Assembly (NCBI GenBank): GCA_017510405.1
Contig: JAFWNG010000013.1
Coordinates: forward strand, 310,001-374,000
Reading direction: 5' to 3'
Length of the DNA stretch: 64,000 nucleotides
Source: Solobacterium sp.
Lineage (GTDB): Bacteria > Bacillota_I > Bacilli_A > Erysipelotrichales > Erysipelotrichaceae
Shown here: positions 25,355 through 30,454 of the stretch, one piece after another
Layout: each line of letters begins with the position of its first letter
Numbering within the stretch: position 1 is the first letter of the stretch
Notes under the pieces: model-generated
Database searches by the model: none
Told to the model about the DNA's origin: nothing
What the model saw: only the letters and a program-made list of their open reading frames with translations
Translations under genes and position numbers: made by a program

Positions 25355-26041
25355 ATGAATTCCTATTATGATGAGATCATTGAAACGATCCGGAGGGCAG
25401 TGGATCAGAAAGACTGGATGACTGCCGAAGTGCTTCTGCGCCAGGAGCTTGCCGTACCGTATATCCCGGAAGACTATGAGAACGAGTTCCATCGTCTGTT
25501 CAAAGAAGTGATCCGGGGAAAAGCGGAAGAGCAGAAGCCTGCGGAAATGCCTCTGGACAATCTTCTTGAACAGCTGAAGAAAACACCCCGGGAACAGCTT
25601 TCCGCGGCGGCGGAGCTGGCTTCCAGAAACCTGCGCAGCTGTACGGAGGAAATACGGGAATATCTTTCCGCGGAACCGTATCCGGATGCGGCGGCGCTCC
25701 TGATCGAAGCACTTGCCGAACAGGAGATCGCCGAAGAGTTCACACTGAATAAAGAAGGCGTTACGTACGAGTTCTATCCTGATGACGTTACCGTTCCCTC
25801 ACAATGCGAAGGCTTCCTGGAAGGGATACGTCTGCTGGAAACGATCTACGGCAATGACCGTCCGGACGTGCTGAATATGTGCCGGACACTCCTGGTTCAT
25901 GCCGTTTACCGGAATCTTCCTCTGACGTACGAGAAAGAAGAAGCGCCGTGGCTTCTGAAGGAGATCATTGCCTCGGTAAGCGATATGCTCGGGGATGAAA
26001 GCATCCGCACGGAAGCGGACAAAGTCCTCTCAGGAAATTAG
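25355..26041 (+). CDS. DUF3196-like protein
   Basis: A 228-residue soluble, acidic, mainly helical protein starting MNSYYDEIIETIRRAVDQKD; the ATG at 25355 follows GAGGAGAAA, while the longer frame from GTG 25301 would begin in the tRNA. Helical pairs such as WMTAEVLLRQELAVPYIPED and FLEGIRLLETIYGNDRPDVL suggest a TPR-like superhelix in the manner of the DUF3196 family, conserved upstream of tig in relatives. No catalytic motif is seen. Its last codons form the 5' half of the first CIRCE operator of tig. Confidence 0.6.
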   Translation: MNSYYDEIIETIRRAVDQKDWMTAEVLLRQELAVPYIPEDYENEFHRLFKEVIRGKAEEQKPAEMPLDNLLEQLKKTPREQLSAAAELASRNLRSCTEEIREYLSAEPYPDAAALLIEALAEQEIAEEFTLNKEGVTYEFYPDDVTVPSQCEGFLEGIRLLETIYGNDRPDVLNMCRTLLVHAVYRNLPLTYEKEEAPWLLKEIIASVSDMLGDESIRTEADKVLSGN

Positions 26042-26064
26042 CACTATTATATTGACAGTGCTAA
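26038..26064. promoter_or_regulatory. CIRCE operator 1 (HrcA site) of the tig-lon operon
   Basis: TTAGCACTA, nine bases, CAGTGCTAA: each half matches the CIRCE consensus TTAGCACTC-N9-GAGTGCTAA at 8 of 9 positions, the substitutions being at the innermost base of each half. It overlaps the -35 box of promoter P1 and the stop codon of the upstream gene. Confidence 0.9.
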
Positions 26065-26080
26065 CAACATGGTGTAGGAT
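26052..26080 (+). promoter_or_regulatory. tig promoter P1, overlapping CIRCE
   Basis: TTGACA (26052-26057), a 17-base spacer and TAGGAT (26075-26080). The -35 box lies inside CIRCE 1, and CIRCE 2 begins just after the -10 box, so bound HrcA would block it at both sides. Confidence 0.75.
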
Positions 26081-26081
26081 G

Positions 26082-26108
26082 TTAGCAGGCACAACTACAG
26101 AGTGCTAA
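26082..26108. promoter_or_regulatory. CIRCE operator 2 of the tig-lon operon
   Basis: TTAGCAGGC, nine bases, GAGTGCTAA: the right half is a perfect CIRCE half-site and the left matches 7 of 9. Centre-to-centre distance to CIRCE 1 is 44 bases, about four helical turns, so two HrcA dimers would lie on the same face of the DNA. Confidence 0.82.
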
Positions 26109-26142
26109 AAGTATCAAAATACTGCGATTTATCTTTATTCGG

Positions 26143-26172
26143 ATGACATGTTTCTGTCTTCTTTGATATAAT
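26143..26172 (+). promoter_or_regulatory. tig promoter P2, CIRCE-independent
   Basis: TGA-TATAAT (26164-26172) is a consensus extended -10 element; ATGACA at 26143-26148 with an 18-base spacer is a possible -35. It lies downstream of both CIRCE elements and would give basal expression. Confidence 0.6.
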
Positions 26173-26207: not shown

Positions 26208-27479
26208 ATGGCAAACTGGACACTGACAGAAAAGGCAAAAGGCGAAATGACCGTCAAGATCGACGGCGATGCATGGAAGAAAGCGGTAAACAAAGCGTTC
26301 AACCGCATTGCAAAAGAAGTAAGCATTCCGGGCTTCCGGAAGGGCAACGTTCCGAAGGCGATGATCGAAAAGAGGATCCCGCGTTCCGCTGTATATGAAC
26401 AGGCTATCGATGACAACATTCAGAACTGGTTCCAGAGCGCTCTGGAAGAGTGCGGCATCCGTCCGATCGCACAGGCGGATTCCAATCTGAAATCCGTATC
26501 TGAAGACGGCGTTGAACTTGCGTTCACTGTCAAGGTAGAACCGGAAGCAGAACTGAAAGACCTCAGCGATGTAAAATACGAAGTCAAGCTCGAAGAAGTT
26601 ACGGATAAAGATATCGAAAACGAGATCAACCGTATTCGTGAAAGATATGCGGAGAACGAAGAAGTTGAAGGACCGGCTGAAGAAGGCGACACAGTCGATA
26701 TCAACTATGTCGGCAAAAAAGACGGTGTACCGTTTGAAGGCGGTTCCGCAAATGACTACAAACTTAAGCTCGGTTCCCATACGTTCATTCCCGGATTTGA
26801 AGAAGGTCTGATCGGCGCAGTCAAAGGCGAAGAAAAAGAACTGACGCTCAAGTTCCCGGAAGACTACCATTCCGCAGATCTGGCCGGCGCAGATGTCGTA
26901 TTTGAAGTAACTGTAAATGATGTAACAAGACAGGTTCTTCCGGAAGTCAATGAAGAATTCGTGGAAGACCAGAATATCCCGAATGTCGATACTGTAGAAC
27001 AGTTCCGTGAACATATCCGTACCCGTCTGACAGACACTGCAAAGAGAAATGCAGAAGCTGCAGCAGAAAACGATATGATGGAAGCATTCGCAGCAGCAGT
27101 TGACGTAGAGGTTCCGGAAGAAATGATCGAAGAAGAGGCAAACAGCCAGGTACAGCAGCAGGCTACACAGCTGCAGCAGTACGGAATGTCTCTGTCCGGA
27201 TATCTGCAGATGCTTGGCCAGACGGCTGAACAGTTCAAAGAGTCCTTCCGTGAACAGGCGGAAAAGACGAACCGTGTCCGTCTCGGTCTCAAAGCCCTTG
27301 CCAAGCGTGAAGGCTTTGTTGCCAGCGATGAGGAACTGGAGAAGAAATTCCAGGAGATCGCCGATATGTATAATATGGCGGTCGACCAGGTCAAACAGTA
27401 TGTCCAGCGGGAGACACTCCGTCAGGATCTTGCGAATGAGAAAGCAATTGAATTCCTGAAAGGAAACCGTTCGGAATAA
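26208..27479 (+). CDS. tig: trigger factor chaperone/prolyl isomerase
   Basis: A 423-residue ribosome-bound chaperone. The ATG at 26208 is preferred to 26202 because AAGGAG would be only 3 bases from the latter and 9 from the former. The N-terminal domain has the ribosome-docking signature GFRKGNVPK (about residues 45-53); an FKBP-type isomerase domain occupies about 150-245 (EGDTVDINYVGKKDG, FIPGFEEGLIGAVKGEE), followed by the helical C-terminal cradle. It shields nascent chains at the exit tunnel. Directly upstream lie two CIRCE operators and two promoters; a hairpin terminator separates it from lon. Confidence 0.95.
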   Translation: MANWTLTEKAKGEMTVKIDGDAWKKAVNKAFNRIAKEVSIPGFRKGNVPKAMIEKRIPRSAVYEQAIDDNIQNWFQSALEECGIRPIAQADSNLKSVSEDGVELAFTVKVEPEAELKDLSDVKYEVKLEEVTDKDIENEINRIRERYAENEEVEGPAEEGDTVDINYVGKKDGVPFEGGSANDYKLKLGSHTFIPGFEEGLIGAVKGEEKELTLKFPEDYHSADLAGADVVFEVTVNDVTRQVLPEVNEEFVEDQNIPNVDTVEQFREHIRTRLTDTAKRNAEAAAENDMMEAFAAAVDVEVPEEMIEEEANSQVQQQATQLQQYGMSLSGYLQMLGQTAEQFKESFREQAEKTNRVRLGLKALAKREGFVASDEELEKKFQEIADMYNMAVDQVKQYVQRETLRQDLANEKAIEFLKGNRSE

Positions 27480-27486
27480 CTAACGT

Positions 27487-27514
27487 AAGACGCATTCCGA
27501 TGCGTCTTCTTTTT
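27487..27514 (+). terminator. hairpin terminator/attenuator between tig and lon
   Basis: AAGACGCAT (27487-27495) and ATGCGTCTT (27500-27508) form a 9-bp stem with a TCCG loop, then C and five Ts. No clear promoter follows before lon, so partial read-through, or a promoter not recognised by eye, must feed lon. Confidence 0.8.
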
Positions 27515-27545: not shown

Positions 27546-29858
27546 ATGAGTAATGCAAATGTGAAAGTACCTGTTGTCTGCACCCGCGGGATCATCGTAT
27601 TCCCGGGGCAGGACGTCATGATCGAAGTCGGCCGTTCGAAATCGATCAACGCAGTCAACCTGGCTGTGGACGCGTACGACAAGATGGTCTGGATCGTCTG
27701 CCAGCAGGATATGATGGTCGACAATCCGGGTATTAAAGACCTGTACAGCACAGGAACTCTTGCAAAGATCAAAGTACTCCGCAAGAAGGAAGGCTTCATG
27801 CGCGTTACATTTACCGGAATGAAGCGGGCACGCCTTGTTCAGCTGGAGGACAGTGACCGCATCATGATGGCCGATGTCGAACCGGTGGATGATATTCACG
27901 GTGATCCGATGGAAGAGATGGCGCTTGTAAAGCGCATCATCTCGGAATTCGAACACATGTCCACCATTACGGCGTCCTTCCCGCAGGAAGTCATCCGTCA
28001 GTTCTCCAACGGCGTAAGCGCTGTTGCGCTGACAGATCAGTTTGCCCAGTATTTCATGATGGATCAGGCAGCGAAGCAGAAGCTTCTGGAGACAGCGGAT
28101 GTCAACGAAAGAATGCTTCTGATCATCGCGGAACTGAACAAGCAGCAGAAATACTCGCAGATCGAACAGGTCATCAATGAAAAGGTCAAAGAGCGCATCG
28201 ATGACAACCAGAAAGAATACTTCCTGCGTGAAAAGATGCGTGCGATCAAAGAGGAACTGGGCGATGTTTCCAATTTTACCGATGATGCGGCACAGATCCG
28301 CGAGATGCTGGATAAGAACCCGTATCCGGATCATGTAAAGGAAAAAGCGCTGGAAGAACTGCGCCGGTATGAGATGCTGCCGCCGGGAAGCGGTGAAGCA
28401 AGTGTCAGCCGGACATATCTTGACTGGCTGCTGAAAGTACCGTGGTGGCAGGAAACACAGGACAACGAGGACCTCAAATCCGTCCGCGGCGTGCTGGATG
28501 ACGACCATTACGGTCTTGAGAAAGTCAAAGACCGCATCATGGAATATCTCGCAGTCAAGCAGATGACGCAGTCTCTGAAGAGCCCGATCCTCTGTCTGGT
28601 TGGTCCGCCGGGCGTCGGTAAGACTTCCCTGGCAAAATCCATTGCGAGAGCGCTGGACCGCCGTTTCGTCAAGATGAGCCTTGGCGGCGTACGGGACGAA
28701 GCAGAGATCCGCGGACACCGCCGTACATATCTCGGCTCTCTGCCGGGACGCATCATCCAGGGCATGAAGAAAGCGGAAGTGATCAATCCGGTATTCCTGA
28801 TCGATGAGATCGACAAGATGGGCATGGACTACAAGGGCGATCCGAGTGACGCCATGCTGGAAGTACTGGATCCGGAACAGAACTCTCTGTTCTCCGATCA
28901 CTACCTGGAAGAACCGTATGATCTTTCCAAGGTGCTGTTTATCGCAACTGCCAACTATCTGGAAAACATTCCGGCACCGCTGCAGGATCGTCTCGAGATC
29001 ATTCAGCTGCCCAGCTATACCGAGATCGACAAGGTCAACATTGCGAAGGAACATCTGATTCCCAAGCAGCTGGAAACGAACGGTCTCAAAGCTGCCCAGC
29101 TCAAACTGAAGGAAGCAGAGATCCTGTATCTGATCCGTCACTATACACGGGAAGCCGGTGTTCGTCAGCTGGAGCGTGTGATCGCTTCGCTTTGCCGCAA
29201 GAGCGTTCTTGAGATCCTCAACAGTGACGTCAAGAGCGTATCGATCACCAGAAAGCGGATCCAGAAATGGCTTGGCAAAGAGATGTATGAGTACGGTTCC
29301 AAGGAAAAGAAGAACCAGATCGGTGTCGTTACCGGTCTTGCGTATACGGCATTCGGCGGCGACGTTCTGCAGATCGAAGTGAACTACTTCACCGGCAAGG
29401 GACGTCTGGTCATGACCGGCCAGCTGGGCGATGTCATGAAGGAAAGTGCCGAGATCGCGCTTGACTACATCAAGGCGCATGCAAAGGAACTGAATATCGA
29501 TCCGAAGTTCTTTGACGAGCACGATATTCATATCCATGTACCGGAAGGTGCTGTGCCGAAGGACGGACCGTCGGCCGGCGTCACGATGACGACTGCGCTC
29601 GTATCTGCGATCTGTGAGCGTCCGGTCTATTCCAACATCGCAATGACCGGCGAAGTAACGCTGCGCGGACATGTTCTTCCGATCGGCGGCCTGCGTGAGA
29701 AATCACTGGCAGCGCACCGTGTCGGCATCGAAAAGATCCTGATCCCGAAGAACAATCTGAGAGATCTGGACGATATTCCGCAGATCGTCCGCGACGGCAT
29801 TACATTCATTCCTGTCGAGGAAGTTTCTCAGGTGCTGAAAGAAGCACTGGTGAAATAA
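27546..29858 (+). CDS. lon: ATP-dependent protease Lon (La)
   Basis: A 770-residue Lon-type AAA+ protease. The ATG at 27546 (AAGGAGGTG upstream) is chosen over the in-frame GTG at 27537, which overlaps that site. The N-terminal substrate domain covers about 1-300; the AAA+ module has Walker A GPPGVGKT and Walker B FLIDEIDKM; the protease domain has the Ser676-Lys719 dyad in KDGPSAG and GGLREK. It degrades misfolded and regulatory proteins in the cytoplasm. It follows tig, with engB overlapping its stop (TAATG), an arrangement kept in many Firmicutes (usually tig-clpX-lon-engB; clpX is absent here). Confidence 0.95.
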   Translation: MSNANVKVPVVCTRGIIVFPGQDVMIEVGRSKSINAVNLAVDAYDKMVWIVCQQDMMVDNPGIKDLYSTGTLAKIKVLRKKEGFMRVTFTGMKRARLVQLEDSDRIMMADVEPVDDIHGDPMEEMALVKRIISEFEHMSTITASFPQEVIRQFSNGVSAVALTDQFAQYFMMDQAAKQKLLETADVNERMLLIIAELNKQQKYSQIEQVINEKVKERIDDNQKEYFLREKMRAIKEELGDVSNFTDDAAQIREMLDKNPYPDHVKEKALEELRRYEMLPPGSGEASVSRTYLDWLLKVPWWQETQDNEDLKSVRGVLDDDHYGLEKVKDRIMEYLAVKQMTQSLKSPILCLVGPPGVGKTSLAKSIARALDRRFVKMSLGGVRDEAEIRGHRRTYLGSLPGRIIQGMKKAEVINPVFLIDEIDKMGMDYKGDPSDAMLEVLDPEQNSLFSDHYLEEPYDLSKVLFIATANYLENIPAPLQDRLEIIQLPSYTEIDKVNIAKEHLIPKQLETNGLKAAQLKLKEAEILYLIRHYTREAGVRQLERVIASLCRKSVLEILNSDVKSVSITRKRIQKWLGKEMYEYGSKEKKNQIGVVTGLAYTAFGGDVLQIEVNYFTGKGRLVMTGQLGDVMKESAEIALDYIKAHAKELNIDPKFFDEHDIHIHVPEGAVPKDGPSAGVTMTTALVSAICERPVYSNIAMTGEVTLRGHVLPIGGLREKSLAAHRVGIEKILIPKNNLRDLDDIPQIVRDGITFIPVEEVSQVLKEALVK

Positions 29859-30454
29859 TGCAGTATCATGACGCAAAGCTTCTGGCCACTGCCGCTGCGG
29901 CTGCGCAGTGGCCGGAAAGCAGTCTGCCGGAGATCATCTTCGTCGGGCGTTCCAACGCCGGCAAGAGCACTCTGATCAACACGCTTGTCAACCGGAAGAA
30001 TCTTGCCTATTCGGGAAAGACGCCCGGAAAGACAAGACTGCTGAACTTCTTTCTGATCGACAATAAAGTCGTATTTACGGATGCGCCGGGATACGGCTAT
30101 GCGATCCGCGATGCCGAAAGCGCGAAGAAGTTCTCCAAGCTGATCGATCCGTATTTCAAATACCGTGACCAGCTGAAGGGGATGGTGCTTGTGACGGATT
30201 CGAGAAGAGAGCCGAGCAAAGATGATATCGCCATGATCGAATACGGACGTGCGGCGCATCTGAATATCGTGATCGCATGCACGAAGGCGGACAAGCTTTC
30301 CCGCAGTCAGCTGCTGCGCAATATGAAAGTGATCCGTGAGACGCTGGGCGTCAGCGCGGATGCACTGATCCCGTGTTCTTCCATCGAAAAAACAGGCATG
30401 GATGAACTCTGGGCAAAGATCGATTCTGTGATCGGGACAGACACTCTGCAGTGA
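29858..30454 (+). CDS. engB: ribosome-biogenesis GTPase YsxC/EngB
   Basis: A 198-residue TRAFAC GTPase needed for 50S subunit assembly. Motifs G1 GRSNAGKST (about 32-40), G2 GKTPGKT, G3 DAPGYGYA, G4 TKAD and G5 CSS are all present. Its ATG shares a base with the lon stop, so the two are translationally coupled. The stop codon lies inside its terminator hairpin. Confidence 0.93.
   Translation: MQYHDAKLLATAAAAAQWPESSLPEIIFVGRSNAGKSTLINTLVNRKNLAYSGKTPGKTRLLNFFLIDNKVVFTDAPGYGYAIRDAESAKKFSKLIDPYFKYRDQLKGMVLVTDSRREPSKDDIAMIEYGRAAHLNIVIACTKADKLSRSQLLRNMKVIRETLGVSADALIPCSSIEKTGMDELWAKIDSVIGTDTLQ

Follow-up and report, generated by a model that had tools for sequence, protein, structure and literature searches.

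A two-promoter control region very probably governs the tig-lon(-engB) genes in the window analyzed here, a 64,000-nucleotide stretch of DNA from Solobacterium sp. This region would comprise a promoter repressed by HrcA (P1) and an HrcA-independent promoter (P2), with lon reached by read-through of a hairpin located after tig. The HrcA/CIRCE switch and double operators are already known; what is new is the choice of target genes, tig and lon, and the unexpectedly conserved hairpin between them. The features of the locus are:

26038..26064, forward strand: CIRCE1, predicted HrcA operator with 2 mismatches to TTAGCACTC-N9-GAGTGCTAA, conserved in the genus
26052..26057, forward strand: P1 -35 hexamer TTGACA, a promoter match within CIRCE1; exactly TTGACA here in 15 of 16 aligned species
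26075..26080, forward strand: P1 -10 hexamer TAGGAT, between the two CIRCEs, with its register conserved in 16 species
26082..26108, forward strand: CIRCE2, predicted HrcA operator covering the putative start of P1, with 2 mismatches and a degenerate left arm, TTAGCAGGC
26143..26172, forward strand: P2, a promoter match with an extended -10 (ATGACA, 18 bp, TGA-TATAAT), outside both CIRCEs
26208..27479 (start 26202 or 26208), forward strand: tig, trigger factor (Pfam Trigger_N, FKBP_C, Trigger_C)
27487..27508, forward strand: intercistronic terminator-like hairpin, AAGACGC-N8-GCGTCTT followed by CTTTTT, with the stem conserved through the order
27549..29858 (start 27537 or 27549), forward strand: lon, ATP-dependent protease (Pfam LON_substr_bdg, AAA, Lon_C)
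29858..30454, forward strand: engB-like ribosome-binding GTPase (Pfam MMR_HSR1)

The original prediction had placed two CIRCEs 44 bases apart at 26038-26064 and 26082-26108, with the P1 TTGACA inside the first and an extended -10 promoter downstream and free of CIRCE, ahead of tig, lon, and an engB-like GTPase gene. The coordinates proved exact, a promoter scan recovered both promoters, and Pfam identified the three genes. CIRCE1 (TTAGCACTATTATATTGACAGTGCTAA) and CIRCE2 (TTAGCAGGCACAACTACAGAGTGCTAA) each carry 2 mismatches over the 18 fixed positions of the pattern, and their spacing of 44 bp is measured from start to start. A functional CIRCE has been limited to at most 2 mismatches (PMC5138195), and both tig sites lie within this limit. 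One arm of CIRCE2 is perfect and the other degenerate, and its binding by HrcA could be weak. The gene upstream ends with TAG (26039-26041), overlapping the first bases of CIRCE1; its product has a weak match to DUF3196 in Pfam.

P1 consists of TTGACA, a 17 bp spacer, and TAGGAT, matching the consensus at 10 of 12 positions, while P2 consists of ATGACA (26143-26148), an 18 bp spacer, and TATAAT (26167-26172) with a TG extension, matching at 11 of 12. These are the only promoter matches between 25900 and 26260, where 0.3 would be expected. Operator and promoter overlap, with the -35 hexamer of P1 inside CIRCE1, the -10 hexamer between the sites, and the predicted start in the left arm of CIRCE2. 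Across 16 species with a 44-bp pair, TTGACA occupies one fixed position of CIRCE1, similarity to TATAAT is highest at exactly 17 bp from that hexamer (mean 4.31/6, next best 3.38), and the TA and final T of the -10 hexamer are invariant. The P2 motif TGnTATAmT lies 38-50 bases ahead of the start codon in 32 of 33 species, compared with 1.2% after shuffling; the sole exception is L062, whose start codon the scripted count misplaced and whose P2 is visible in the alignment. The idea that the P1 transcript carries a structured RNA leader was rejected, as the sequence folds no better than shuffles (z -0.05) and matches no Rfam family.

Conservation within the genus was followed in tig loci from 40 genus genomes and further genus members of an order-wide draw, 33 of which had a complete and correctly placed upstream region and were counted, although the counts are not independent, some genomes being close relatives (e.g., L069 and L074). 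Read from the alignment, two CIRCEs precede tig in 24 of the 33 species, one in 9, and no species lacks them; the scripted count gave 23, 9, and 1, because it misplaced the start codon of L062, both of whose sites are present in the alignment. Among the 16 aligned species, nearly all share the same TTAGCAGGC-type departure from the consensus in the CIRCE2 left arm (26082-26090), for which a start-site constraint or a tuned affinity are candidate reasons. It might be argued that one CIRCE matters at a time, the second being either a remnant or a site for fine adjustment that does not act cooperatively, as the 9 species with a single site retain CIRCE1 in some cases and CIRCE2 in others, and as one CIRCE2 arm is degenerate. 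This is rather unlikely, since the 24 species with both sites hold them at a spacing of 43-46 bp, all 16 aligned species have an identical right arm in CIRCE2, and the composite arrangement persists across the class at other HrcA targets. A CIRCE with TTGACA in its right half and another CIRCE beginning after it occurs in 155 of 395 class genomes, with 0 control matches.

The absence of hrcA had been named beforehand as a finding that would speak against HrcA control. The gene was looked for and is present on the same contig as the window (G000:C33:238713-239363; PF01628, E 4e-46). At up to 3 mismatches, the genome holds 11 CIRCE sites, compared with 0 for a reversed control pattern, and these fall into seven loci:

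hrcA-grpE-dnaK-dnaJ-clpB: CIRCE pair, 44 bp, the same spacing as at tig
tig-lon: CIRCE pair, 44 bp
groESL: CIRCE pair, 47 bp
htpG: CIRCE pair, 33 bp
two hsp20 genes: a single CIRCE each
ftsH: a single CIRCE

HrcA, HSP20, FtsH, HSP90, ClpB, trigger factor, and Lon were checked with Pfam, whereas grpE, dnaK, dnaJ, and groESL were assigned by reading the sequences and gene order. All sites other than those at tig precede known heat-shock genes. Loss of CtsR, the regulator of class III genes, is a candidate cause of this broad HrcA regulon; a search for it (PF05848, PF17727) gave no match in 40 genomes, with a control that matched Lactococcus lactis alone and missed Bacillus subtilis. The HrcA of this one lineage would cover a broad protein-quality set that includes folding helpers, a disaggregase, and two proteases.

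The conserved CIRCEs before tig, the P1 -10 hexamer in register with TTGACA, and the presence of P2 fit an HrcA-repressed P1 together with an HrcA-free P2, and the predicted HrcA control of tig-lon is well supported. In the proposed mechanism, HrcA dimers on CIRCE1, over the -35 hexamer, and on CIRCE2, over the start site, would block P1 at normal temperature. Heat or misfolded protein would tie up GroEL, HrcA would lose activity, and the opening of P1 would raise trigger factor and Lon, while P2, downstream of both operators, would provide basal transcription independent of HrcA. The lon gene would be transcribed by read-through of the conserved hairpin after tig, which would probably set Lon at a level below that of trigger factor. 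The GroEL titration step is borrowed from other bacteria; that HrcA activity depends on free GroEL is stated in passages of PMC7737663 and PMC3828012 that cite earlier published work. Under heat, CIRCE promoters of Mycoplasma gallisepticum changed no more than many CIRCE-free promoters (PMC4245973), and heat induction of P1 should therefore not be assumed. The original prediction that trigger factor and Lon come together under the heat-shock repressor, with P2 keeping basal expression, gains from the presence of hrcA and the genus-wide conservation of the CIRCEs, P1, and P2. That prediction did not include the conserved hairpin after tig, and P1 and P2 may control lon less fully than tig.

The tig and lon genes are adjacent in 35 of 35 genus loci and are also kept together in the family and order, and engB homologues lie 3' of lon in 20 of 20 relatives. 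The closest named record is a sheep-rumen MAG labelled Solobacterium sp., with a tig identity of 76%. A second, shorter trigger-factor-like ORF (G000:C27:88462-89334), sharing 33% identity over residues 130-419, is encoded elsewhere in the genome, and extra trigger-factor-like copies are likewise present in a second family of the order.

The intercistronic hairpin, AAGACGC-ATTCCGAT-GCGTCTT followed by CTTTTT, begins eight bases past the tig stop, and in other species it lies further from this stop. With a GC-containing stem and a T-run it has the form of an intrinsic terminator, termination itself being predicted. The stem reads exactly AAGACGC/GCGTCTT in 54 of 67 loci from the order and one neighboring family (29/35, 17/21, 7/9, and 1/2). 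Of the remaining 13 loci, nine carry a variant stem that still pairs. The other four did not score as positive for the hairpin, although two of them (L065 and L237) show related hairpins by eye. A stricter pattern, which demanded outer pairs that vary, was matched in 9 of 247 genomes. In the control comparison, the hairpins 3' of engB in 11 relatives all differed from each other, and 9 other relatives had none there. The other hairpins in the window lack the AAGACGC/GCGTCTT stem, and the stem pattern occurs once in this genome. One stem position is A-T in 56 cases, G-C in 4, and the intermediate G-T in 3, a variation that fits selection at the RNA level. Intrinsic terminators require no particular stem sequence, so that a plain terminator does not account for the conservation of this stem.

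If the hairpin after tig were a full terminator, lon would be uncoupled from both P1 and P2. HrcA might accordingly govern tig alone, the hairpin ending most transcripts and lon having either a weak promoter inside the operon or low, constant expression. The stability of the hairpin with its T-run (-11.2 kcal/mol for a 41-nt stretch) speaks for such a division, which is nevertheless improbable because no promoter-like match lies between the hairpin and lon in the window, no -10-like match was found in the tig-lon gaps of the 35 genus loci, the one promoter match inside tig (27100-27127) is at chance level, and the pair has stayed together beyond the genus. As there is no evident promoter after the hairpin, lon is probably reached by read-through. 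Translating ribosomes can suppress a plain terminator that lies close to a stop codon (PMC4824070), and such suppression of the stop-proximal hairpin would allow read-through in this window, but the hairpins of other species stand at a greater distance from the tig stop.

As to the identity of the hairpin, Rfam returned only meaningless eukaryotic matches below threshold and thus no family, and no description of it was found in the open-licence papers searched. A gene set sharing the hairpin was rejected as a candidate, extra copies lying in 12 places beside unrelated genes with no second target among them. A DNA operator is less likely, since the loop varies in length from 2 to 9 across loci and the stem contains G-T pairs. 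Tentatively, the hairpin may be a sequence-specific RNA element, retained across the order and bound by some factor, that acts after the HrcA-controlled promoter to tune the amount of Lon against that of trigger factor. The conserved hairpin constitutes a separate lead on how Lon levels are set.

Family and order names follow the search tool, and most of the genomes are incomplete MAGs. Outside the genus, tig has a single CIRCE before it in 13 of 55 genomes of the same family and in 15 of 26 genomes of a second family of the order. In the second family the geometry differs, as the site does not span the TTGCA/TGTATAAT promoter but sits immediately upstream of it; in loci L118-L140 the tig CIRCE overlaps the 3' end of the preceding reading frame. 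Elsewhere in the class, 1 of 65 readable loci has a CIRCE with at most 2 mismatches before tig. The original prediction suggested seeking paired CIRCEs before tig in relatives; pairs were seen in the genus, and single sites are common in the order outside it. That the repeats arose by chance or serve another regulator has a negligible probability, as the number expected by chance in the window with 3 mismatches allowed is 0.02, 0 of 100 shuffled windows contained two CIRCEs at this threshold, the reversed pattern had no match in the genome, the sites are conserved in the genus and order, and the other genomic CIRCEs all stand before known heat-shock genes.

HrcA and CIRCE form the regulon of class I heat-shock genes in Bacillus subtilis and other bacteria. 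The present system shares with it the inverted repeat, the presence of hrcA in the genome, and sites that overlap a vegetative-type promoter, but differs from the classical regulon in also including htpG, hsp20, ftsH, clpB, and lon. In the open-licence literature searched, tig was not found at the head of a CIRCE operon. Pairs of CIRCEs at a single promoter are also reported for the dnaK operon of Lactococcus lactis (PMC1676014) and for dnaK and clpB of Spiroplasma (PMC5138195), where the target genes differ. The pair itself is real, but the double operator is less noteworthy than originally claimed and not exceptional. It is the usual form at hrcA in the order, where 9 of 10 hrcA loci of the second family carry a pair spaced 46 bp, and it is widespread across the class.

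Control of lon by CIRCE in mycoplasmas, on which the original prediction drew, is documented in the literature (PMC7737663, PMC4245973, PMC5138195). In Mycoplasma pneumoniae, a CIRCE lies upstream of lon, after the trigger factor gene (PMC7737663), and lon is a published CIRCE target in M. gallisepticum (PMC4245973) and Spiroplasma melliferum (PMC5138195). Among the genomes compared here, a CIRCE stands between tig and lon in 6 of 7 loci of the mollicute-type family f5, in which TGA encodes an amino acid, and a weaker CIRCE-like repeat, TTGGCACTC-N9-GATTGCAAA, which may be a weakened HrcA site, occupies this place in 6 of 6 loci of families f11 and f15 (L226-L231). In this window no CIRCE lies between tig and lon, and the Mollicutes-type placement directly before lon is not seen. 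As in Mycoplasma and Spiroplasma, lon is a predicted HrcA target, and tig adjoins lon, as it does in M. pneumoniae and the majority of the mollicute-type loci compared. Unlike the Mycoplasma arrangement, the operators here lie upstream of tig and would cover both genes, and this difference in position makes the regulatory history of tig-lon testable.
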